A DNA stretch of 64,000 nt. It comes from Chryseobacterium sp. FP211-J200 (GTDB taxonomy: Bacteria > Bacteroidota > Bacteroidia > Flavobacteriales > Weeksellaceae). The DNA lies in the NCBI RefSeq assembly GCF_001643375.1, contig NZ_LSHB01000002.1:1-64000 (forward strand), in the 5' to 3' direction. This document shows, one piece after another, positions 44,419 to 56,202 of the stretch (positions are counted from its first letter, which is position 1; each line of letters opens with the position of its first letter). The translations under genes and the position numbers were made by a program. The notes under the pieces are model-generated. The model was not told the origin of the DNA. It worked only from the letters and a program-made list of their open reading frames with translations, and did no database searches.

Positions 44419-45006
44419 ATGAAAGCAAAAATAATAATCGTTTTAATTTTCTTTTTTTCAATCCTTTCCTTTGGGCAAACCAAGACTAACAATTACGAGA
44501 ATGATATCAAAAAATCTTTAGGCCAATTCGTGCAAAATATCAAGACAAAAAATATCAATAATGCTGTCGAATGTATTTATCCTAAATTTTTCACAGTTGT
44601 TCCGAAAGAGCAAATGAAGCAAATTTCTAATTTTACTTATAACAATCCAATGCTTGATATCAAGATTTTAGATTTTAAAGCAATAAGCGTAGAAAAACCA
44701 GAAAAGATTAACAATGAATTGTTTTCTATTGTCAATTACAGCTCTAAAATGAATTTGAAAGTTGATTGGAATTCGATTCCCAATGGACAAACCATGAAGA
44801 AACAAATCAATGACGGTTTGTACAAAAAATTTGGAAAAGCTAATGTGACCTATATTCCGAAAGGCGATTATTACTTGATTAATTCAAAAATGAAGGCTTG
44901 TGCGATTTCTGGCAATGGTAAAGATTGGAAATTTTTAATTCTCGAAGAAAGTTACAAGAAAAACTTAAATAATATTTTACCAAAAAAAATCATCGACAAA
45001 TTCTAA
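44419..45006 (+). CDS. Hypothetical secreted protein
   Basis: A 195-residue protein with a signal peptide (IVLIFFFSILSFGQ) and no recognised domain. The mature part has a helical NDIKKSLGQFVQNIKTKNIN opening and a C-terminal GDYYLINSKMKACAISGNGK DWKFL pattern reminiscent of small NTF2-like or DUF4878-type exported proteins, a weak impression. It converges on the ChaN-like gene, the two coding regions overlapping by 4 nt at their ends. Confidence 0.7.
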   Translation: MKAKIIIVLIFFFSILSFGQTKTNNYENDIKKSLGQFVQNIKTKNINNAVECIYPKFFTVVPKEQMKQISNFTYNNPMLDIKILDFKAISVEKPEKINNELFSIVNYSSKMNLKVDWNSIPNGQTMKKQINDGLYKKFGKANVTYIPKGDYYLINSKMKACAISGNGKDWKFLILEESYKKNLNNILPKKIIDKF

Positions 45007-45881
45007 TAAGTCTTCGTCATATCACTCGGAATCACCAAATTGAATTCCGTCGGGATAAAATCTTTTTCAGGTAAAATTAATTCCGGTTTTTCAGATTCAA
45101 AGACAGAGATTACGGCAATTTTCAAATTCGGGTTTTTCTTTTTCAAATACCAATAGATTCCGCCGTATTGCTTGCTGTGATAGTCGCCGTTGTAGTGGAT
45201 AAAGGTCTTTCCAGCCTGTAGATTTTCGAAAATCGATTCTGCCATTGTCGCGTCTTTTATGGCTTGTGCTGAAATGAAGTTCATCAATATCAATTCGTCC
45301 ACGTGGTCGCCCATCAAGGATCTCATTTCTTTGTAGCCAGGCGTTTCCAAAGTGACTTCAATTGGTAATTTGGCAATCCATTTCTTTTCGTTTTCCGGCA
45401 ATTGGTTTAAGCTTTCGATTCCCGATTTTGACGTTTGAGATGCGTATTTTCTGGGAACATTGGTCGCAATGAATTTCAGTTGATGGTCTTTCGCAAAATC
45501 CACCAAAGGTCTGTAATCCGTTTCGTAATTTTTCCAGAGCCTAACAGAATCTTTCATGACTTTCGGGTCAATTTTTCCAGCTAGATAAGAATCAAGCGCT
45601 TTTTGATTGTCTCTTTCAAACATCTCTGCGCCTAGAATGATCTGACCTTTTTTCTGATCAAAAAGCGCTTCCGTTATCCTTTTCTCCAGCCAATGATTGA
45701 TGGAATTATCATGATGTTCGCCAATGAAAACCACATCATAATCTACCAATTGCTTCATGACTTTTTCTGGTGAAACTGCCTTTGACTTTTTATCAAAAAA
45801 CTGATACGAACTGAAATCCTGAGCCTTAAAACCATTAAGATTTAAGATCAAAATAAGCAATACTAACTTTTTCATTTTCAA
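45003..45881 (-). CDS. ChaN-like haem-binding protein
   Basis: A 292-residue exported protein of the ChaN family. It has a signal peptide (LVLLILILNLNGFKAQ) and family motifs VVFIGEHHDNSINHWLEKRI, GAEMFERDNQKALDSYLAG and MAESIFENLQAG, then FIHYNGDYHSKQYG. ChaN of Campylobacter binds haem and is iron-regulated. Its place beside the haem uptake cluster supports a role in haem handling in the periplasm. A terminator-like hairpin lies between it and the HemS-like gene, so it may be transcribed separately. Confidence 0.85.
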   Translation of the reverse strand: MKMKKLVLLILILNLNGFKAQDFSSYQFFDKKSKAVSPEKVMKQLVDYDVVFIGEHHDNSINHWLEKRITEALFDQKKGQIILGAEMFERDNQKALDSYLAGKIDPKVMKDSVRLWKNYETDYRPLVDFAKDHQLKFIATNVPRKYASQTSKSGIESLNQLPENEKKWIAKLPIEVTLETPGYKEMRSLMGDHVDELILMNFISAQAIKDATMAESIFENLQAGKTFIHYNGDYHSKQYGGIYWYLKKKNPNLKIAVISVFESEKPELILPEKDFIPTEFNLVIPSDMTKTY

Positions 45882-45954: not shown

Positions 45955-46977
45955 TTATAAACCAGCGACTAGATCTTTCCAACCTTGAAGTTCCGGATTC
46001 CCCGGTTTTCTCTTTCCGAAAAGCTGCACGATAAAATCACCTTCTCTGTTGAACACTTCAATCGAAGTGACTTCGCCGTCTTCGGTCGGTTTTTTGGTGA
46101 TCCACGTTTCCGCGATCTTTGTCGTGTCAAGGTGAAGATTGAAATCGGGATCCATCACATTGAACCATTGCTGATGCCAAAGTGTCTTGTTCACTTCGCC
46201 CGTATGGATCTGGATGATTCCTCTGTTCCCAACGAAGATCATAATTGGAAGTTCTTTTTCAGAAGCATCTTCCAACACGTTCACTACTTTAGAATTCTCT
46301 ATTTTCGTAGCGTAACCTTCTGGCGCCAATCTCAATGCCTGAGTTCTAGTCACACCGAATTTCCTAAGCATCATAAAGAAATCGTGTGTGTCTTTCAGGT
46401 CTTTCCAAGCCTGTTGGAAACCAGCCACATCGATATCTGAATCTGCTTTCTCTGCAGGTTTACCAGGAACAGACTCGGTAACAACATTTGGAGATTGCTC
46501 ATCCGCTGCATATTTCTTTGTCAAAGCATCGAATTCTGCTTCGTTGCTTTTGTTTGTCAAATAGATCTTGTGAAGCGCCAAGCCATCTTTTCCGAAGAAT
46601 TGCAAGCTTTTTCTGTCGCCCTCGATCACAGAAAAACCGAATTTCCAAGAGTTGATGAAGATTCTTAGATCGATATCTTCACCAACGAAAACCTGTCCGT
46701 GAGGATTGCTGAAATCTGGATTCAAATAGATTCCTTTTCTTTCGTGCACGCATTCGTCGTTTCTGGTCAAAGCCATTACTTTTTCAAGTTTGACAACTTC
46801 CTGAAGAAGGTCTGCAAATTCTGGCTTCAAAACCGTAACTCCGTTTCCTACGTTTACAGCAAGCAATTCAGCTTCGCTCACACCTAATTGTTCTGCCGCG
46901 TTTCTTATTCTCAAATGTGGGTTTTCTGCTTTCAGTGCTTCCCATTTTTCTTTTAATTCATTAATTAATGTACTCAT
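45955..46977 (-). CDS. HemS/ChuS-like hemin-degrading or haem-trafficking protein
   Basis: Cytosolic haem-handling protein of 340 residues, made of two structural repeats. The N-terminal half has LRIRNAAEQLGVSEAELLAV and VMALTRNDECVHERKG; the second half repeats the pattern as GVTRTQALRLAPEGYA and LPIMIFVGNRGIIQIHTGEV. VMDPDFNLHLDTTKIAETWI and the C-terminal DFIVQLFGKRKPGNPELQGW are family hallmarks. Members bind haem and in some species break it open to release iron. It is downstream of the methyltransferase and transporter genes of the haem cluster, separated from the former by a repeat-containing gap. Confidence 0.92.
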   Translation of the reverse strand: MSTLINELKEKWEALKAENPHLRIRNAAEQLGVSEAELLAVNVGNGVTVLKPEFADLLQEVVKLEKVMALTRNDECVHERKGIYLNPDFSNPHGQVFVGEDIDLRIFINSWKFGFSVIEGDRKSLQFFGKDGLALHKIYLTNKSNEAEFDALTKKYAADEQSPNVVTESVPGKPAEKADSDIDVAGFQQAWKDLKDTHDFFMMLRKFGVTRTQALRLAPEGYATKIENSKVVNVLEDASEKELPIMIFVGNRGIIQIHTGEVNKTLWHQQWFNVMDPDFNLHLDTTKIAETWITKKPTEDGEVTSIEVFNREGDFIVQLFGKRKPGNPELQGWKDLVAGL

Positions 46978-47766: not shown

Positions 47767-48543
47767 TTAACCAAATAAGATCATCGTATTGTCATTGACC
47801 GGATGTTTGCAGATCGTACAAGGGAAATTGTAAGCCTTGGAAATGGTTTCTGCGGTGAACACTTTTTCTGGTGAGCCGTAAGATAAAACCGAGCCTTTTT
47901 CCATTAATAAAATATGGTCCGCGAACTGTGCCGCCAGATTTAGGTCGTGCAAGACAACGATTGCTGTGTTATTATTCTTAGTAAAATTCTTTATCAGTTC
48001 CAATGTTTTGTATTGGTGCTTAATATCCAGATTATTAAGTGGTTCGTCCAGGAAAAGTAAAGTATTTTCTATCTCATTGTCCAACTGCGCTAAAACTCTC
48101 GCCAAGTGAACACGCTGCTTCTCGCCACCAGAAAGTGAATTGTATTCTCGCTTTTGAAAATGTACCACATCGGTTTCAACCATCGCTTTTTCCACCGATT
48201 GGAAATCTTCCTGATGCGGCTGTGAACTGAAATAGGGATAACGTCCCATCATCACAACATCGGCTACTAAAAGCGGAATATCCTGCGCGTTGTGCTGAGA
48301 GAATTTGGCTTTGTGTTTGGACAGTTCTTCCAGATTCCAATCGGACAGGATCTTGTCTTTGAATTGGATATTCTTTTTGTTATCCGTTTTAATTTCGTTC
48401 GCTAATAAATTCAGAAGGCTAGATTTCCCTGCGCCATTTGGACCTACGATCGCCAAAAATTCTCCGAAACCGACATTGACATCAACATCCTTCAAGATGC
48501 TGACTTTTTGACTTAGATAATTGATCTTTTGCCCTTTTATCAT
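47767..48543 (-). CDS. hmuV: Haem ABC importer ATP-binding protein
   Basis: ATPase of the haem importer, 258 residues: Walker A GPNGAGKSSLLNLLA (about 34-48), Q-loop around KFSQHNAQDIPLLVADVVM, signature YNSLSGGEKQRVHLARVLAQ, Walker B LLFLDEPLNNLD and switch His in VLHDLNLAAQF. The family-typical VVMMGRYPYFSS is present. It overlaps the permease gene by 4 nt, and HmuT/HmuU/TonB receptor upstream define the pathway, so the gene name is well supported by context. Confidence 0.93.
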   Translation of the reverse strand: MIKGQKINYLSQKVSILKDVDVNVGFGEFLAIVGPNGAGKSSLLNLLANEIKTDNKKNIQFKDKILSDWNLEELSKHKAKFSQHNAQDIPLLVADVVMMGRYPYFSSQPHQEDFQSVEKAMVETDVVHFQKREYNSLSGGEKQRVHLARVLAQLDNEIENTLLFLDEPLNNLDIKHQYKTLELIKNFTKNNNTAIVVLHDLNLAAQFADHILLMEKGSVLSYGSPEKVFTAETISKAYNFPCTICKHPVNDNTMILFG

Positions 48544-49598
48544 CTTAAGGTGTTTTTAAATTTAATTAAAATGGCAATAAAAATTGGTCCTCCGATCAAT
48601 GAAGTCAAGATTCCGATCGGAAGTTCTGAAGGCGCCACAATCGTCCTGCTTATCGTGTCTGCAAACAGTAACAAAATACTTCCACAGATGGCTGACAACG
48701 GTAAAATAAAATGGTAATCGGAACGGAAAAGCAATCTCAGAATATAAGGAACAATCAGCCCAACGAATCCAATCGTTCCGGAAAATGCGACGCAAGTTCC
48801 CACCATCAAAGCGGTTAAAACGACAATCTGTTTCTTCAAAGTTTCAACATTGATTCCCAAATGTTGCGCATCTTTTTCGCCTAACATCATAGCATTTAAA
48901 GCTTTTCCTTTTGGTAAAATAATGAGGTATGATAATATTAAAACAATTGTCAAAATAATATTTTTCGTCCAAGTAGCTCCCGCTAAACTGCCTAAATTCC
49001 AGAAGGTCAAATCTCTTAATTGTTCATCTTTTGAAATGTAGATCAGAAATCCCGTAATTGAAAATCCAATGGAAGTAATGGCGACTCCGCTTAGAAGCAT
49101 CATTACCACATTGGTTTTTCCGCCAGATGTTGAGATCCTGTAGACGATGATCATCGCCAACAATGCACCGACGAACGCAGAAACACCGACTAAAGAATTC
49201 CTTACAATTTCTGGAAGATAAGCCTCAAATGTATGTCCTAAAACAATGGCAATCGCTGCCAACAATGTAGCTCCAGAAGTAAGACCAATCGCCTCACCCG
49301 TAGCCAATGGATTTTTGAACATTCCTTGCAACGTAGTTCCGGAAACGGCCAACATACTTCCAACGAGAACGGCCATCACAATTCTGGAAGTCCGGACGTC
49401 CCAAATGATATATTTCTCACTCAAGGAAATTGACGAATCGCCTGTAATAAATTTCCAAAAAACCTCATAGGAACTGGATCTACCGAAATCAAAAACCCCG
49501 ATATTCATAGACAAAACCATCATCAGCATTAATAAAAAAAGACCGATAATGGCGTAAAATGTAAGACTTTTTGATTTCAAAATGTTGTTTTTTTTCAT
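48540..49598 (-). CDS. hmuU: Haem ABC importer permease (FecCD family)
   Basis: Inner-membrane permease of 352 residues with about ten helices. Family motifs are WDVRTSRIVMAVLVGSMLAV, NPLATGEAIGLTSGATLLAA and FSGTIGFVGLIVPYILRLLF. It works with HmuV (4-nt overlap) and HmuT (46 nt upstream). The run of neighbours, from TonB receptor to HemS, makes haem the probable substrate. Confidence 0.93.
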   Translation of the reverse strand: MKKNNILKSKSLTFYAIIGLFLLMLMMVLSMNIGVFDFGRSSSYEVFWKFITGDSSISLSEKYIIWDVRTSRIVMAVLVGSMLAVSGTTLQGMFKNPLATGEAIGLTSGATLLAAIAIVLGHTFEAYLPEIVRNSLVGVSAFVGALLAMIIVYRISTSGGKTNVVMMLLSGVAITSIGFSITGFLIYISKDEQLRDLTFWNLGSLAGATWTKNIILTIVLILSYLIILPKGKALNAMMLGEKDAQHLGINVETLKKQIVVLTALMVGTCVAFSGTIGFVGLIVPYILRLLFRSDYHFILPLSAICGSILLLFADTISRTIVAPSELPIGILTSLIGGPIFIAILIKFKNTLR

Positions 49599-49644
49599 AG
49601 GAATAAATTCCTATGTTAGAAAATCTATCGTCCCTTTGAGACTT

Positions 49645-50526
49645 CTATTTTGTGGATTCTATTAACAGTTTGTTCAGGCTGGCAGCTGCTTCCCCAACTC
49701 TTGGACCGAATGAAGATAACAATCCGCCATCCATAGCAATCACTCTTTTATTTTTACCAGCGTTGGTCTGAGGAACGCCTGGCATTTTAAGAGCACCATC
49801 TATTCCACCAGAACCTTGTAGCCCGCTGCTGAAGAACAATAAGACATCTGGATTTGATTGTACGACTGCTTCCGGTGTCAACGGTTTGAAATCTTCGAAG
49901 TCATTGGCTGCATTCTCGCCGCCAGCAATCTCAATGATTTTAGCCATTGGTGTGTTTTTGCCCCCGACCATCATCATGTTTCCTCTTGCGTAGATGAATA
50001 GGACTTTTGGTTTTTTAGCGATTGGCTTGATTTGCTTAATATCCGCATCGATTTTATCGATTAAGGTTTGCTGGTTTGTGTTTCCTAAAGCTTTGGCAAC
50101 CTGGTCAATTAATTTCTTCGTTCCATCGATCGTGAATTCTTGATTGAACAACTCGGATTTGATCCCTGAAGCTTTGATCTTTGTCAACAGGTCTGGATTG
50201 ATGTCTTTGTCAGAAGCGACAATCAAAGATGGATTAAGCGCCAAAAGCGGCTCAATCGTCATCGAACGGACATGACCTAACTCTTCTGCTGTATTTTTCA
50301 AAGTCTCCGGATAGGTGCTCGTTACATCTATTCCAACAATCTCCTTCTCGTGGCCCAAGGCCACAACGATCTCGGTAATTCCGCCGCTGATACTTACAAT
50401 TCTTTGGTTGGAAACTGGTTTTTCAGATTTGGTTTCTGGAGTGGTTGCCACTTTGGAATCTTCTTTTTTACAAGAGACGCCGGCAAGAAGTATTGCTGAA
50501 ATAAGGGCTATTTTGATGTTTTTCAT
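49645..50526 (-). CDS. hmuT: Haem ABC importer substrate-binding lipoprotein
   Basis: Binding protein of 293 residues with a lipoprotein signal, lipobox GVSC (about residues 16-19). The class III periplasmic binding fold is indicated by ISGGITEIVVALGHEKEIVG, VRSMTIEPLLALNPSLIVAS and FKPLTPEAVVQSNPDVLLF. In HmuT/ShuT, Tyr or His residues contact haem; a candidate Tyr lies in VLFIYARGNMMMVGG. It passes haem from the outer-membrane receptor to HmuUV. Confidence 0.92.
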   Translation of the reverse strand: MKNIKIALISAILLAGVSCKKEDSKVATTPETKSEKPVSNQRIVSISGGITEIVVALGHEKEIVGIDVTSTYPETLKNTAEELGHVRSMTIEPLLALNPSLIVASDKDINPDLLTKIKASGIKSELFNQEFTIDGTKKLIDQVAKALGNTNQQTLIDKIDADIKQIKPIAKKPKVLFIYARGNMMMVGGKNTPMAKIIEIAGGENAANDFEDFKPLTPEAVVQSNPDVLLFFSSGLQGSGGIDGALKMPGVPQTNAGKNKRVIAMDGGLLSSFGPRVGEAAASLNKLLIESTK

Positions 50527-50554: not shown

Positions 50555-51655
50555 TTAGAGTGGTTTGTATTCGAATTGTGGGAAACCTCTATAGTTTGCG
50601 TCATCTTTCATTCTTAAGAATCTGATTTTAAAAAAGAATCCATCACTATCTCTTAGAACATAAAATTTATTAGAGTAGACCTCAGCACCGTTAGTTCCTG
50701 TTGTGGTTCTCCAATTGCTTCCTATTGCTCGTTGGTCATTATTTATAAATTTGCTACCATCAACATCTTCTTTTTTGAAATTATTGTAAGCCGTCTCTCC
50801 TTGTCCGGCAGCCGTTGTAATCTCGTATACACCTGCTCCTCCTAAAATATTATGTAAAACTATATCTGGATAGATATATGAAGTATCCAGGTTATTCGCA
50901 GGATTTAAAGTTAGGTTGGTAAAAACGGTGTAACACAAATCCCACTCCTTCTTTTTGGGCTGAACATTTGCAATTGTTCCTGTTTTGAAAGAGAAAAATT
51001 TGTAGTTATATTCTGAATCTTTTGAGATAATAAATTCTTTATGCGAAGTATCGTCTAAATCAGCATACTGAATTTTGTAGCCTAAAGCGTTTCTTAATAT
51101 TCTTATTTTTTTCCATCCTCTCAAATCTCCAACATTATAGATCGTTCCTGGACTGGTAGTTCCTGTATAGGTTTTGTAACCCATATTCAGAAGGTAAACA
51201 TTGTTCAGGTTATCATCAACATTGATTGCCGAGATGCCACTGGTCTGATTGACGATATCTCCGTCTGGATTATCGACATACTTAGCATTATCTGTATAAT
51301 TCGCTGCTTGGACAAGCAATTTAAGGTCTTTAATAGTTTCGGAATTTACCGCATCAATATTATTGACATTCTTAACTTCTCCAACAGACATTACCAATGA
51401 GCTATTTAGCATCACACGAAATTCGTCTCCGCAGTAGAATCCTAGATCCCAAAGCTCTCTGTGGGTCTTGGAAACATCCCCTGTACTTAGATCAATCCAG
51501 AACTGGTTAGCTTCTGTGGGATCCGCTTGCTCGTTTAAAGTAAGTACACTACCTTCTATAGGAAGGATTTTGACCGGAGTAGCATCCTCAGCAACACAAG
51601 AGGTGAAAATGGAAAATATAAGTAGAATTAAAGTAAAATTTGTTGTCTTTTTCAT
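50555..51655 (-). CDS. hmuY: HmuY-family haem-binding lipoprotein
   Basis: A 366-residue lipoprotein (lipobox FTSC) of the HmuY family, haem scavengers first described in Porphyromonas gingivalis. Motifs are FWIDLSTGDVSKTHRELWDL, KFFSFKTGTIANVQPKKKEW then DLCYTVFTN, and a C-terminal NKFYVLRDSDGFFFKIRFLR. The protein is attached to the outer membrane and hands haem to the TonB receptor encoded 2 nt upstream. It shares its architecture with the secreted protein encoded at 54866-56149. Confidence 0.9.
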   Translation of the reverse strand: MKKTTNFTLILLIFSIFTSCVAEDATPVKILPIEGSVLTLNEQADPTEANQFWIDLSTGDVSKTHRELWDLGFYCGDEFRVMLNSSLVMSVGEVKNVNNIDAVNSETIKDLKLLVQAANYTDNAKYVDNPDGDIVNQTSGISAINVDDNLNNVYLLNMGYKTYTGTTSPGTIYNVGDLRGWKKIRILRNALGYKIQYADLDDTSHKEFIISKDSEYNYKFFSFKTGTIANVQPKKKEWDLCYTVFTNLTLNPANNLDTSYIYPDIVLHNILGGAGVYEITTAAGQGETAYNNFKKEDVDGSKFINNDQRAIGSNWRTTTGTNGAEVYSNKFYVLRDSDGFFFKIRFLRMKDDANYRGFPQFEYKPL

Positions 51656-51657
51656 AA

Positions 51658-53766
51658 TTAGAAATTAAAATTAAATCGTCCAAAATAACTTCTTCCGTAG
51701 AACATTCTTTCCGCAGCACCTGTTGTCCCGTGGACTCCGCCCGTACTTCCAGAAGCTCCATTACGGACATCGGAAATATCAAAAATGTTTCGAACTCCAA
51801 AAGTAATGGTGAAATGGTCTTTCCATATTTTTTGGGAAACCGAGGCATCCATTAATGAAAATGCATTTTGTCTTCCCAAAATATACTGAGTTACACCCAG
51901 GCTTTTATCCTCCATAATTCGGTAAGTCTTACCTACTCCTTTATAGTAAATTGCAAATGATGTTTTAGTTTTTAGGAGATTATAGTAGGCAGATGCATTG
52001 ATCTCCGGAGAATACTGGTATCTATCATCTTGAGTTTGATTAAGGTCCATCATTCGACCTAAAACGGAAAATCCTAGATTAAGTCCAAAATTCTTATTGG
52101 AAATTTTACCAGAAACTGTGTTAAGCCAAGATTCATAACTGTCAACATTGATATATTTATACTGTAAAGGTTGCTCATTGGTAATGGCCAATTCTATACG
52201 GTCACGGGTTTGCAGATAAAGGGAACTGATATCAACGCTCCATTTAAATTGAGTTTCCGGCTTACTAAAAATCGAATAATACAACATTCCTGAGTAAGAA
52301 CTTTCTGGCTTTAAACCACTGTTTCCTTGGATATTATGATTACTATCTACCAGAAAAGTGAATAATTCCTCAAATGTTGGATTTTTGTTAGCAGAACCTA
52401 CAACTGCTCTAAATTCGGATTGATCATTGATGGTTTTTTTTAAAACCAATGAGAAATTTGGTTTTGTTTCGAATGTATCAGAAAAATTCATCCTTACGCC
52501 TGGTCTCAAGAACCAATTTGAACTAAGATCAAACTCGGCGGAAGCAAAAACCCCCACGTTTAAAACATTATTTTCAATATTGTTATTGTCGAATTTTCCT
52601 GTATCTGTGCCAGCAAATCCTTTGGTATAATCACCCTCATATCCCAATTGTACATTGGATTTGTCTGAGTTCAAAAAATTACTGATTGTTCCTCTGGAAT
52701 AGAATGTTTCGGCTTCGTAGTATGTGCTTTTATTCTCTCTGGAAATCTCTTGTATCGCAGGAACATCAAAAATATAATCTTCTTTTTTTCTAGACTGTTT
52801 TTGATAGGAAAAATCACCAGTAAATTTTGTTTTCTTAAAAATCTCTGTCTGGATATTCAAATGATGAAGCATTCTTTGTGTAAAATAATCTCTGTCTATC
52901 GCTGTAAAAGTACGTTCTCCTTCACCTAAATCCTTTGGGACTAGTAAGGGATTATAGAAATTGATCTCTTCCATCAGATAATCTGCTTTGTAGAAAAACT
53001 GTGTTTTCGAACCAGCAAACCTTAATAAAAAAGTAGGGTTCCACTGTTCTTTTGGCTGCCATTCATAACCCCTTCTGTTATCTTGCTCAAAGTAATTTTT
53101 ACCTTTATTACTGCCCCAAAAACCCTGAAAATCATTTCTGTTCAATGACAAATCGGTGTACCATTTATCAGATATGTTATGGGATATCCCTAATGATTGT
53201 ATGTGTCTACCTTTTCCGTAATCTACCCAATCATATTCTTTACCTACAGTTTCTTCCTGTACAAAACCTCGGATATTCCATTTTTTCTTTGAGTTCTTTC
53301 TGGTAATAATATTGATAACACCGGCGACGGCATTGTTTCCGAATTCGACACCCATAGACCCTTTCACAATCTCTATTCTTTCAATATTATCGAGGCTCAA
53401 TTTTGTTAGATCAATATTACTTCCTAATCCAGTGTCACCTACAACAGGGATATTATCTACCAATACTTTGGTGTAATCGGCACCCAAGCCCATGATATTA
53501 GCTTTTGAGTCGCCCGTGTTTTTTTCCGGAACTATCAGGATATTTAAAGTCTGATTAAGTACTTCTGCTACATTGTTTACAGCCATTCTCTTTATGTCAT
53601 CGCTGCTTATAACTTCTACCTTATACAAAGACCTTTTAATAGACTGGGCCGTATATTGCCCAGTAACTACAACTTCTTCAATATTTTTTTGACTAAGTGA
53701 ATCTTTCTGTCCGTACGCAAAATTCAAAATTGCTACTGATAAAAGGCTCATCGTTCTCTTCTTCAT
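51658..53766 (-). CDS. TonB-dependent haem receptor (HmuR-like)
   Basis: Outer-membrane receptor of 702 residues, signal peptide at the N-terminus (LLSVAILNFAYGQ), plug domain with the TonB box region IEEVVVTGQYTAQSIK, then NVAEVLNQTLNILIVPEKNT and IERIEIVKGSMGVEFGNNAV, and a 22-strand barrel ending in FGRFNFNF. Its fixed place upstream of hmuY, hmuT, hmuU and hmuV makes haem the likely ligand; haem-receptor barrel motifs were not specifically checked. The start is preceded by a region with Fur-like half-sites shared with the divergent gene at 53873. It is the first gene of the haem operon. Confidence 0.9.
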   Translation of the reverse strand: MKKRTMSLLSVAILNFAYGQKDSLSQKNIEEVVVTGQYTAQSIKRSLYKVEVISSDDIKRMAVNNVAEVLNQTLNILIVPEKNTGDSKANIMGLGADYTKVLVDNIPVVGDTGLGSNIDLTKLSLDNIERIEIVKGSMGVEFGNNAVAGVINIITRKNSKKKWNIRGFVQEETVGKEYDWVDYGKGRHIQSLGISHNISDKWYTDLSLNRNDFQGFWGSNKGKNYFEQDNRRGYEWQPKEQWNPTFLLRFAGSKTQFFYKADYLMEEINFYNPLLVPKDLGEGERTFTAIDRDYFTQRMLHHLNIQTEIFKKTKFTGDFSYQKQSRKKEDYIFDVPAIQEISRENKSTYYEAETFYSRGTISNFLNSDKSNVQLGYEGDYTKGFAGTDTGKFDNNNIENNVLNVGVFASAEFDLSSNWFLRPGVRMNFSDTFETKPNFSLVLKKTINDQSEFRAVVGSANKNPTFEELFTFLVDSNHNIQGNSGLKPESSYSGMLYYSIFSKPETQFKWSVDISSLYLQTRDRIELAITNEQPLQYKYINVDSYESWLNTVSGKISNKNFGLNLGFSVLGRMMDLNQTQDDRYQYSPEINASAYYNLLKTKTSFAIYYKGVGKTYRIMEDKSLGVTQYILGRQNAFSLMDASVSQKIWKDHFTITFGVRNIFDISDVRNGASGSTGGVHGTTGAAERMFYGRSYFGRFNFNF

Positions 53767-53793: not shown

Positions 53794-53848
53794 TTATTTA
53801 GAATCAATAAAAATAATTCAGTACTTTTGTAGAATAATTCTAAATAAC
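53794..53848. promoter_or_regulatory. Divergent control region with Fur-like palindromes
   Basis: Between the TonB receptor (minus) and a secreted T9SS gene (plus). A half-conserved site TTATTTAGAATCAATAA lies at 53794-53810, and a perfect 6-1-6 palindrome TAGAATAATTCTA at 53830-53842 extends rightwards into AATAAC. The plus-strand -7 box TACTTTTG (53822-53829) abuts the palindrome, so a bound repressor would cover the start site. The pattern fits iron-dependent Fur control (inference). Confidence 0.6.
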
Positions 53849-53872: not shown

Positions 53873-54661
53873 ATGAAAGCAAAACTATTTTTGGCAGCTT
53901 CTTTATTTGCAGTCGTTGCAAACGCACAATTAACTTCTATCGACGAAAACTTCAATAATTTTACAGCCGGAAGCACAACCTTTCCTCAAAGCGGCTGGTC
54001 TGTAAAATTGCCAACGGGACCATTTCCTCCCCAACCAATGATGATCGTTACAGCAGACACAAACAAATCTATCCAGGCTTATCCTGGAAGTACAGTCGCT
54101 CAGCCGATGTACCTGATCACGCCTCAGATCGTGGCTCCTGCTGGAGACAAAACATTGTCTTTTGACTCTGGAATGGTAACTGGCGGATTAGGAACCACCG
54201 GTTCTGTGCAAGTTGGACTCGCTACTGACCCAGCTGATATGACCACTTTCGTAGCTGTAGGTAACCCGATCGAATTAACAAGTACAACAGTTCAGAATTT
54301 TAAAGTTGGAATTCCAGCATCTACTGCTACATATTTGGTGATCAGAACAACCTCAGCAACAATGCATTCACCGATCCATATCGACAATGTAAAATATGAC
54401 AGTGATCTGTCGGTTGCAGACAATGCATTTTCTTCCAACAATGTAAAATTTGCTGTTACCGCAGACAACAACGCTTTGAAATTCTCTTCAACTTCTACCC
54501 TTTCCACTACTAAAATTTATTCTGCGACTGGACAATTGTCTACTGAAGGAAAAATCATCAATAACACATTTGATATTGCAAAACTAAAGACAGGCATTTA
54601 TTTCATTGTGATTGAAAACATGAACGGACAGTCTGTAAAATCTAAATTCATCAAAAAATAA
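53873..54661 (+). CDS. Secreted T9SS cargo protein, choice-of-anchor-J-like
   Basis: A 262-residue exported protein: signal peptide (LFLAASLFAVVANAQ), one jelly-roll domain of the choice-of-anchor-J/cleaved-adhesin type (SVKLPTGPFPPQPMMIV, PMYLITPQIVAPAGDKTLSF), and a T9SS sorting tail with TKIYSATGQLSTEG and LKTGIYFIVIENMNGQ. Its position opposite the haem receptor and its Fur-like promoter suggest it is made in iron starvation. A role in haem or iron capture is possible; the domain itself is a generic binding or adhesion module. Confidence 0.82.
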   Translation: MKAKLFLAASLFAVVANAQLTSIDENFNNFTAGSTTFPQSGWSVKLPTGPFPPQPMMIVTADTNKSIQAYPGSTVAQPMYLITPQIVAPAGDKTLSFDSGMVTGGLGTTGSVQVGLATDPADMTTFVAVGNPIELTSTTVQNFKVGIPASTATYLVIRTTSATMHSPIHIDNVKYDSDLSVADNAFSSNNVKFAVTADNNALKFSSTSTLSTTKIYSATGQLSTEGKIINNTFDIAKLKTGIYFIVIENMNGQSVKSKFIKK

Positions 54662-54697
54662 GTTGAATTAGGATAAAATAACTTATTTATAATTAAG

Positions 54698-54727
54698 CCT
54701 TTCGAGTTTTTCTTGAAAGGTTTTTTT
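54698..54727 (+). terminator. Terminator after the 53873 gene
   Basis: CCTTTCGAG and CTTGAAAGG (one mismatch) around a T-rich loop, followed by a T-run. Confidence 0.75.
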
Positions 54728-54782: not shown

Positions 54783-54837
54783 TTATTTAGAATAATTAAA
54801 AACAATTATATAGTTTTGTAGAATAATTCTAAATAAC
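54783..54837 (+). promoter_or_regulatory. Second Fur-like control region
   Basis: Same order as at 53794-53848: a site TTATTTAGAATAATTAAAA at 54783-54801, a -7 box TAGTTTTG (54811-54818) and the identical palindrome TAGAATAATTCTA at 54819-54831 followed by AATAAC. Only one gene, 54866, lies downstream, so the arrangement is a copy of the control unit in front of another T9SS gene. Confidence 0.65.
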
Positions 54838-54865: not shown

Positions 54866-56149
54866 ATGAAAACAAGACTACTTTTGGCAAGTTTACTTGC
54901 ATTGACTGTAAACCAAACGGTTCTATCACAAACGGACGAGAATGGTTATACACAGGTTGAACTTACCACTGGACCACAATATGCAAACAGAGTGTTCTTT
55001 GACCTCTCCGCAAACAACATTGTTTCACAACCAGCTACAGGATGGGATATCGCGTTCTACAGAAACAGTGCTATGGATTTCGGGATCAAAGTAAATGATG
55101 CAACAAGCGTCTTGACCTACCAAGTTTCTGCCGATCATGCCGCATTTGATACTGTAATACCTGCAGATAAGGCATCTTGGGGAGAACCACTTTATAATCC
55201 AGACCAGACAGAAAGGATCCAAGATGGTGCATTTGACGCTGCCACATTGTTGCCTGCCACAAGTCTTAATTTTGGATGTGGATCTTATGATATCGCAACG
55301 CACAAAGTCAATGGTAAAGTCGTTTTTGTATTGGAATACGGTACAACTTATTACAAATTTTTCATCAATGAATATGCTGCTAGTTACACTTTCAAATATG
55401 CAAAATGGAATGGAACATCTTGGGACGCAACACAGACTAGAACAATTGCTAACGGCACAGACGATGCATTTTTCAACTACTTCTCTTTTGATACGGGAGA
55501 AAAAGTGACTAACCTGGAGCCAGCTAAAGCAAACTGGGATCTTATGTTTACCAGATATTATACTTTTTACGCTAATATCATGATGTACAAATTATCAGGT
55601 GTGATCCAAAGTCCGAATGTAACCGTTGCCAAAGTACAACCAGAAACTCAAGCTGTTTCTACTTTTACAGCACCTGCGGCGGCCGCTTATTCTAAAAACA
55701 TTACAACGATTGGTCATTCTTGGAAACCAACTTCTGGCGTGAATACCGATGTCGTCTATTATATCAAGGAAGGAACTAAATATTATAGATTGTATTTCAC
55801 AGATAACGGTGGTGCTTCTACAGGTAACATGTACTTCAAATACAAAGATATCACGTCTACATTATCGGTAGCTGATCTTGGAAAGAAAGGAAGTTTTGGG
55901 ATCTATCCGAATCCGACCAAAGAAGATAAAAAAGTGAACATCTTATTTGATGTAAAAGAAACTACTTCTAAGAACGGAACTGTTGAGTTATTCGATTTTT
56001 CTGGTAAGAAAGTTTTCGAAACGGCTATTGCAAATCAATCAGGATTCTCTGCTCAGGAAGTTGACCTTAATAGACTTAACTCTGGTGTCTATCTCGTAAA
56101 GATCACTTACGGCGGGCAAACAGAAACCAAAAAGCTTATTGTAAAATAA
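54866..56149 (+). CDS. HmuY-like protein with T9SS sorting tail (candidate secreted hemophore)
   Basis: A 427-residue exported protein with a Sec signal (LLLASLLALTVNQTVLSQ) and no lipobox. The body resembles HmuY: VFFDLSANNIVSQPATGWDI then AFYRNSAMDFG at the start and FNYFSFDTGEKVTNLEPAKA then NWDLMFTRY, matching FSFKTG...W-DL...FT of the lipoprotein encoded at 50555-51655. From about residue 345 it carries a T9SS tail, FGIYPNPTKEDKKVNILF to LVKITYGGQTETKKLIVK. It should therefore reach the cell surface or medium by T9SS rather than stay as a lipoprotein. The Fur-like promoter supports iron regulation. Haem binding is inferred from the family. Confidence 0.82.
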   Translation: MKTRLLLASLLALTVNQTVLSQTDENGYTQVELTTGPQYANRVFFDLSANNIVSQPATGWDIAFYRNSAMDFGIKVNDATSVLTYQVSADHAAFDTVIPADKASWGEPLYNPDQTERIQDGAFDAATLLPATSLNFGCGSYDIATHKVNGKVVFVLEYGTTYYKFFINEYAASYTFKYAKWNGTSWDATQTRTIANGTDDAFFNYFSFDTGEKVTNLEPAKANWDLMFTRYYTFYANIMMYKLSGVIQSPNVTVAKVQPETQAVSTFTAPAAAAYSKNITTIGHSWKPTSGVNTDVVYYIKEGTKYYRLYFTDNGGASTGNMYFKYKDITSTLSVADLGKKGSFGIYPNPTKEDKKVNILFDVKETTSKNGTVELFDFSGKKVFETAIANQSGFSAQEVDLNRLNSGVYLVKITYGGQTETKKLIVK

Positions 56150-56179
56150 GTCATATTTTCAGATTTTATTCTTTATGAG

Positions 56180-56202
56180 AACCACCTTCGGGTGGTTTTT
56201 TT
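56180..56202 (+). terminator. Terminator after the T9SS HmuY-like gene
   Basis: Perfect AACCACC-TTCG-GGTGGTT hairpin with a stable TTCG tetraloop, then a T-run. Confidence 0.9.

Follow-up and report, generated by a model that had tools for sequence, protein, structure and literature searches.

T9HmuY, a HmuY-Family Protein of Weeksellaceae with a Type IX Secretion Tail and Apparent Tandem Domains, as a Probable Haemophore-Like Partner of HmuR and Lipoprotein HmuY

The window, i.e., the whole stretch of 64,000 nucleotides analysed here, encodes a protein, T9HmuY, which is probably a tandem-HmuY, haemophore-like protein sorted by the type IX secretion system (T9SS), regulated by Fur and passing haem to a lipoprotein HmuY and its receptor HmuR. 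T9HmuY probably fetches haem for the importer encoded beside it. A secreted hemophore had been proposed by a sequence-only reading of this DNA. The analysis supports that proposal in part, i.e., the HmuY family and fold, the T9SS destination, the Fur-type control and the linkage to HmuR-HmuY; its remaining steps, haem binding, release and hand-over, we infer. The features of the gene are as follows.

54866..56149, + strand: T9HmuY, HmuY-family protein with predicted T9SS export (427 aa, ATG start)
~54866-54928, + strand: signal peptide, judged by eye (N-terminus MKTRLLLASLLALTVNQTVLSQ)
54944..55420, + strand: putative HmuY domain A (residues ~27-185; relatives' N-terminal halves pass the Pfam HmuY model)
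55433..55864, + strand: putative HmuY domain B (residues ~190-333; related by hhalign to the lipoprotein's second, C-terminal HmuY domain)
55901..56149, + strand: type A T9SS C-terminal sorting domain (residues 346-427; TIGR04183 60.3 bits)
54695..54723, + strand: terminator-like hairpin between the genes of AdhT9 (see below) and T9HmuY (consensus scan only)
56177..56200, + strand: terminator-like hairpin 3' of T9HmuY (consensus scan only)

Family and fold

Residues 22-343 of T9HmuY belong to the HmuY family (PF14064), and their homology to the lipoprotein HmuY of the neighbouring gene extends from end to end. The Pfam HmuY model gives no match above threshold on T9HmuY itself, and family membership was thus tested by several other routes: (i) BLASTP against the neighbouring lipoprotein HmuY gives E 7e-9 over about 310 aa; (ii) hhalign between 28 T9HmuY orthologues and 26 lipoprotein HmuYs gives a probability of 98% and E 4.6e-14 over 284 columns; (iii) the Pfam model matches 8 of the 28 close orthologues (best 1.8e-10) and 11 of the 34 full-length relatives (best 3.9e-11). 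The values obtained in (i) and (ii) mean that the WD/FSF/W-DL pattern, noticed earlier in both proteins, reflects homology and not chance. A search of the PDB with T9HmuY by phmmer found T9SS tails only, and the profile of the 28 orthologues found no PDB chain at E 10.

The AlphaFold2 model of T9HmuY (pLDDT 84.9, pTM 0.81) was compared with PDB chains by VIA-align. The top seven matches are all of the HmuY family, i.e., 3u22 (Z 12.6), 6r2h (12.1), 4gbs (11.4), 8b6a (11.1), 3h8t (10.6), 6eu8 (9.9) and 8b61 (9.2). The match to 3h8t, the HmuY of P. gingivalis with haem, covers 129 residues at 3.3 A. Rank 8 is taken by 4ei0 (Z 8.2), which belongs to DUF4466, after which the Z drops to 4.3 at rank 9. 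Foldseek also places a HmuY (PinO) first, with a marginal E of 0.0077; the fold claim leans therefore on VIA-align. On the basis of this model T9HmuY is predicted to have the HmuY fold, as the resemblance read from the sequence had suggested.

Export

The protein of 54866-56149 had been described as lacking a lipobox and ending in a T9SS tail, and this description holds. The N-terminus looks, by eye, like a Sec-type signal peptide. The first Cys is residue 138, thus no lipobox is possible. The tail scores 60.3 bits with TIGR04183 (cut-off 23) and 57 bits with Pfam Por_Secre_tail (cut-off 27), and it is kept in all of the 34 relatives, six of them from other genera. The genome of the window contains T9SS machinery genes, all above cut-off: SprA (2071 bits), PorU (1077 bits) and PorV (362 bits). 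T9HmuY has thus the features of a T9SS type A cargo, i.e., a signal peptide (by eye), a type A tail, and translocon and sortase genes in the same genome. It would cross the inner membrane by Sec. SprA/PorV would then take up its C-terminal domain and PorU would cleave it, and the HmuY part would be either anchored at the cell surface or released. With regard to the earlier claim that the protein reaches the surface or the medium, the T9SS destination is supported by the tail and by the SprA, PorU and PorV genes, and release from the cell is a conjectural further step.

Characterised HmuYs are usually outer-membrane lipoproteins, though the Pfam family PF14064 does not demand this state, and that of P. 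gingivalis can be shed by proteolysis. T9HmuY departs from this usual form and has a T9SS tail instead. The premise of the sequence-only reading that HmuY proteins are outer-membrane lipoproteins only is outdated: F. columnare C6N29_01035 has, like T9HmuY, a HmuY-family domain and a Por_Secre_tail domain, and the account of it in PMC9618737 reports it, citing Thunes 2022, as secreted by the T9SS. Since this HmuY is also T9SS-tailed, the missing lipobox makes a «classical» HmuY less likely and does not affect family membership.

Tandem domains and candidate haem ligands

T9HmuY and the neighbouring lipoprotein HmuY each appear to contain two HmuY domains in tandem. The N-terminal halves of two T9HmuY relatives exceed the Pfam HmuY cut-off (27) alone, with 32 bits over positions 2-144 of 157 (L063) and 29 bits over positions 1-144 (L049). 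Both halves of the lipoprotein do so as well (36.7 and 51.2 bits), and so does its N-terminal half in three further species. The C-terminal half of T9HmuY (domain B), tested alone, is not matched by the Pfam model; hhalign aligns the C-terminal halves of T9HmuY and the lipoprotein with a probability of 96% and E 1.8e-9, and the N-terminal halves with E 1.1e-7. When the two halves of one protein are compared directly, the match is weak (E 0.11 within T9HmuY and 0.0013 within the lipoprotein), so that the duplication is deduced from the separate Pfam matches. For comparison, the solved HmuYs of Bacteroidales have a single domain of 176-197 residues, and RhuA of R. anatipestifer (210 aa) has one Pfam match.

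His146 (55301-55303) is present in 28 of 28 close relatives and in 33 of 34 relatives overall. It lies in the domain A motif GWxxYDxxTH, which is also found as GWYTYDMSTH in RhuA, a HmuY reported to bind haem (PMC11967795). From its conservation, His146 may be a haem ligand of T9HmuY. Further conserved candidates are Met227, Met239, Met240, His284 and Met322. No His of domain A aligns with His134 or His166, the haem ligands of P. gingivalis HmuY, though the alignment is weak and uncertain.

It must be noted, separately, that Cys138 (55277-55279) lies in a GCG where relatives nearly always have Trp (the GWG motif ahead of His146).

Fur-box-like operators and the third gene, AdhT9

The region upstream of T9HmuY and the divergent intergenic region between hmuR and 53873 contain the following sites, listed together with the gene of AdhT9.

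54816..54834, no strand: Fur-box-like operator of T9HmuY, TTGTAGAATAATTCTAAAT (compare the Riemerella Fur consensus ATTTAGAATTATTCTAAAT, PMC5609570)
54811-54818: -7 element of the T9HmuY promoter, TAGTTTTG, overlapped by the operator 54816..54834
54785..54803, no strand: second, upstream Fur-box-like site at T9HmuY, ATTTAGAATAATTAAAAAC, with 18 of 19 bases as in the RAYM_00450 box (PMC5609570 Table 5)
53827..53845, no strand: Fur-box-like operator of the hmuR / 53873 intergenic region
53822-53829: -7 element of the same region, TACTTTTG
53873..54661, + strand: AdhT9, T9SS-tailed protein, a predicted jelly roll similar to the cleaved adhesin domains of gingipains (0-2 copies in relatives)

The same operator layout had been noticed in front of T9HmuY and of the haem operon, and it is confirmed to the base: 53828-53844 and 54817-54833 have one and the same palindrome, TGTAGAATAATTCTAAA, which at each of the two promoters shares bases with the end of a TAnnTTTG -7 element. 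With at most 1 mismatch to TTTAGAATNATTCTAAA, only four sites are found in the 4.1 Mb genome, two of which are these operators; the reversed pattern, used as a control, gives 0 sites in the same 4.1 Mb. For R. anatipestifer, ATTTAGAATTATTCTAAAT has been predicted as the Fur consensus; in EMSA, the purified protein bound fragments of promoters with boxes of this kind (PMC5609570).

The comparison was extended to 40 distinct loci, i.e., 15 of Epilithonimonas (window included) and others of Chryseobacterium, Kaistella, Soonwooa and further genera. A Fur-like box (within 3 mismatches, a level reached by 1.7% of random 150-bp stretches) precedes T9HmuY in 39/40 loci, hmuR in 37/40 and the AdhT9 gene in 23/30; hmuY, which lies inside the operon, is preceded by one in 0/39. 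The single T9HmuY locus without a box has a frame-broken gene. Under iron starvation, Fur would leave the palindromic operator at the T9HmuY promoter.

The operator of the haem operon lies within the divergent hmuR / 53873 intergenic region, and it therefore serves a third gene too, that of the T9SS protein AdhT9, which is divergent from hmuR with a Fur box of its own. AdhT9 is predicted to be a jelly roll (pLDDT 90) and its best PDB matches are the Lys-gingipain cleaved adhesin domains K1, K2 and K3 (Z 15.9, 15.5 and 15.0), followed closely by CBMs (14.4). It evolves fast, with 41% identity to its E. lactis counterpart. From these model matches AdhT9 could possibly be a docking factor for erythrocytes or haemoproteins.

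These gingipain matches of an adjoining, Fur-controlled T9SS protein bear on another explanation, namely that T9HmuY binds a host haemoprotein (haemoglobin, haem-albumin) and not free haem, as a surface receptor or adhesin, the lipoprotein being the one that binds haem. The canonical HmuY ligands not found in T9HmuY (by a weak alignment) and the divergence of domain B from the Pfam HmuY model also point in this direction. Against it, His146 is invariant in the 28 relatives, within a motif shared with RhuA, a HmuY for which haem binding is reported (PMC11967795), and this explanation is considered unlikely.

The neighbouring haem-uptake genes

The genes on the other side of AdhT9 are listed below.

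51658..53766, - strand: HmuR-like TonB-dependent receptor
50555..51655, - strand: HmuY lipoprotein with two putative HmuY domains (51170-51511 and 50567-51010; Pfam HmuY 77 bits)
47767..50526, - strand: haem-type ABC importer HmuTUV (SBP by profile; permease and ATPase named from sequence)
49645-50526, - strand: SBP of HmuTUV (Peripla_BP_2; IsdE-like)
48540-49598, - strand: permease of HmuTUV (named from sequence)
47767-48543, - strand: ATPase of HmuTUV (named from sequence)
45955..46977, - strand: HemS/ChuX haem-utilisation protein (HemS 241 bits)
45003..45881, - strand: ChaN-like haem-binding uptake protein (Cofac_haem_bdg 210 bits)

The assignment of 50555-51655 as a HmuY lipoprotein, already made from the sequence, agrees with its Pfam score and with Cys20, which is invariant among its 26 relatives. 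T9HmuY, AdhT9, HmuR, lipoprotein HmuY, HmuTUV, HemS and ChaN would be made together once Fur lifts, provided that Fur binds these boxes and the genes are co-expressed. T9HmuY would then bind haem in the medium, as expected from its family. The conserved linkage suggests that the haem would be passed to the lipoprotein HmuY / HmuR and then to HmuTUV and HemS, in this presumed direction.

T9HmuY could instead bind some ligand other than haem, hydrophobic or tetrapyrrolic (cobamide, protoporphyrin, siderophore), which the adjoining TonB receptor would import. The best model of this receptor is a B12 receptor, a weak match under cut-off (TonB-B12, 81 bits of 600), and the SBP matches both IsdE and BtuF models, also under cut-off. 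The operon, however, includes HemS and ChaN, and the proteins at the corresponding place of R. anatipestifer (L118), RhuR-RhuA, are haem uptake proteins (PMC11967795). Such a ligand is improbable.

Linkage and distribution in Weeksellaceae

In 40 of the 40 close loci T9HmuY adjoins hmuR-hmuY and is transcribed away from hmuR, and hmuY is 3' of hmuR in every close locus whose contig extends to hmuY. Between T9HmuY and hmuR these loci have 0, 1 or 2 small T9SS proteins like 53873-54661. Of 6 loci from more distant Weeksellaceae, 5 have T9HmuY beside hmuR-hmuY: it is divergent in L145 and L147, and co-directional in L144, L146 and L148. The sixth (L143) has a remote relative in a different setting. 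In the three co-directional loci, which come from other genera of the family, T9HmuY is 3' of hmuR-hmuY, and the lipoprotein HmuY, at 464-478 aa, is a longer protein.

Among 23 congeners, the lipoprotein HmuY is present in 15/15 of those with T9HmuY, and T9HmuY in 0/5 of those without the lipoprotein. Three of the 23 (one at a contig end) have the lipoprotein without T9HmuY, thus T9HmuY is dispensable. Of 296 genomes of Weeksellaceae searched with the T9HmuY profile, 175 gave matches, mostly strong ones (E < 1e-60); the weak ones are possibly lipoprotein HmuY. In Chryseobacterium sp. 39-10, a MAG, the T9SS HmuY gene (L066, 8001-9262) consists of two overlapping ORFs, owing to a frame break or an assembly error.

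T9HmuY is dispensable in some congeners which keep the receptor, and F. columnare deleted for its T9SS hmuY is reported to grow without defect in the media used (PMC9618737). This would suit a haem sink or shield (detoxification, surface storage, denial to competitors) and not delivery for uptake. Such a role is made very improbable by the strict linkage to an uptake receptor and by a Fur box of the iron-starvation and not of the haem-excess type.

Exchange of the receptor and lipoprotein pair

Compared with E. lactis, the other haem-operon genes, T9HmuY and LipB are 91-97% identical, and HmuR and lipoprotein HmuY 48-49%. This low identity holds against most congeners. Against E. arachidiradicis the identities are 76-91% for the operon genes and T9HmuY, 86% for HmuR and 77% for HmuY; against one further genome (G012), HmuR is 89% and lipoprotein HmuY 85% identical. 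From these identities, the genus looks to have two versions of the hmuR/hmuY pair, and the pair (50555-53766) seems to have been replaced as one cassette, the exported HmuY being left in place. If the system works with both cassettes, the hand-over by T9HmuY cannot depend on lineage-specific contacts.

Comparison with known systems

The T9SS-secreted HmuY of F. columnare is already published, thus the idea of an exported HmuY is not new. In PMC9618737, as far as its account of this protein goes, it is proposed as an aid to haem uptake, with no mention of a second HmuY domain or of a lipoprotein HmuY as its partner; it is likened to T9HmuY by description, not by sequence. T9HmuY is a variant of this precedent: its domains are apparently in tandem, it is paired with a lipoprotein HmuY, and its divergent unit is putatively under Fur control.

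P. gingivalis HmuY and its Bacteroidales kin (Tfo, PinO, Bvu, BfrB/BfrC) have the HmuY fold predicted for T9HmuY (Z 9-12.6), and the TonB receptor partner and iron regulation proposed for it. They differ in being single-domain lipoproteins, and their bis-His or bis-Met ligands are not evident in T9HmuY. HfpR-HfpY of F. psychrophilum resembles the system proposed here in that a haem-binding protein of the HmuY family shares a transcript with its TonB receptor and is repressed by iron; the description available in PMC9331221 contains no T9SS-exported HmuY. P. gingivalis Hbp35 is, as proposed for T9HmuY, a T9SS-exported haem-binding protein (review PMC10202324).

The closest arrangement is that of RhuH-RhuR-RhuA in R. 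anatipestifer (L118). RhuH is a secreted high-affinity haemophore needed for growth on haemoglobin or haemin, and its gene is divergent from rhuR-rhuA, a receptor-HmuY lipoprotein operon, across a Fur-box promoter (PMC11967795). RhuH differs from T9HmuY in belonging to DUF6607, in having no T9SS tail and in being found in OMVs (PMC11967795); RhuA has a single HmuY domain vs. two in the lipoprotein of the window. The 298-aa protein of L118 (5073-5969) aligns from end to end with the solved structure of RhuH (PDB 8xjc), scoring 672 bits. It must be noted that DUF6607, a Pfam family of unknown function, has thus a characterised haemophore member.

Hbp35 is of a different, thioredoxin-like family. 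Owing to its identical position, T9HmuY was considered as a member of the RhuH/DUF6607 family, and this was ruled out on sequence: BLASTP of RhuH against the window proteins gives no match better than E 1.7. RhuH was not found in the genome of the window. As regards fold, 8xjc is not among the VIA-align matches listed for the T9HmuY model. RhuH is at the same divergent position and unrelated in sequence to T9HmuY, i.e., different secreted proteins occupy one regulatory slot. This suggests that unrelated proteins (Riemerella RhuH, T9HmuY) fill a secreted-haemophore slot beside hmuR-hmuY in different lineages.

Meaning for Weeksellaceae

Three elements go beyond the sequence-only reading: the tandem HmuY domains, the third, secreted protein gene with a Fur box, and the swapped receptor/lipoprotein pair. 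A tentative and less probable model is a two-tier HmuY relay of Weeksellaceae. A T9SS-exported double-HmuY would gather haem at a distance from the membrane and pass it to a surface-anchored double-HmuY lipoprotein on HmuR, with the help of a Fur-controlled T9SS adhesin docking on haemoproteins; the exported tier would be receptor-agnostic and persist through swaps of the receptor/lipoprotein cassette from species to species. The natural cassette swap beside an unswapped exported HmuY is a ready test of contact-specific haem transfer.

With the matches in 175 of 296 genomes (the weaker ones possibly lipoprotein), T9SS-exported HmuY passes from one reported protein of a fish pathogen to a widespread trait of Weeksellaceae, and T9HmuY is a member of a genetically linked set with the lipoprotein HmuY and the receptor. 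It would add to the surface-anchored HmuY a haem-catching layer of longer reach.
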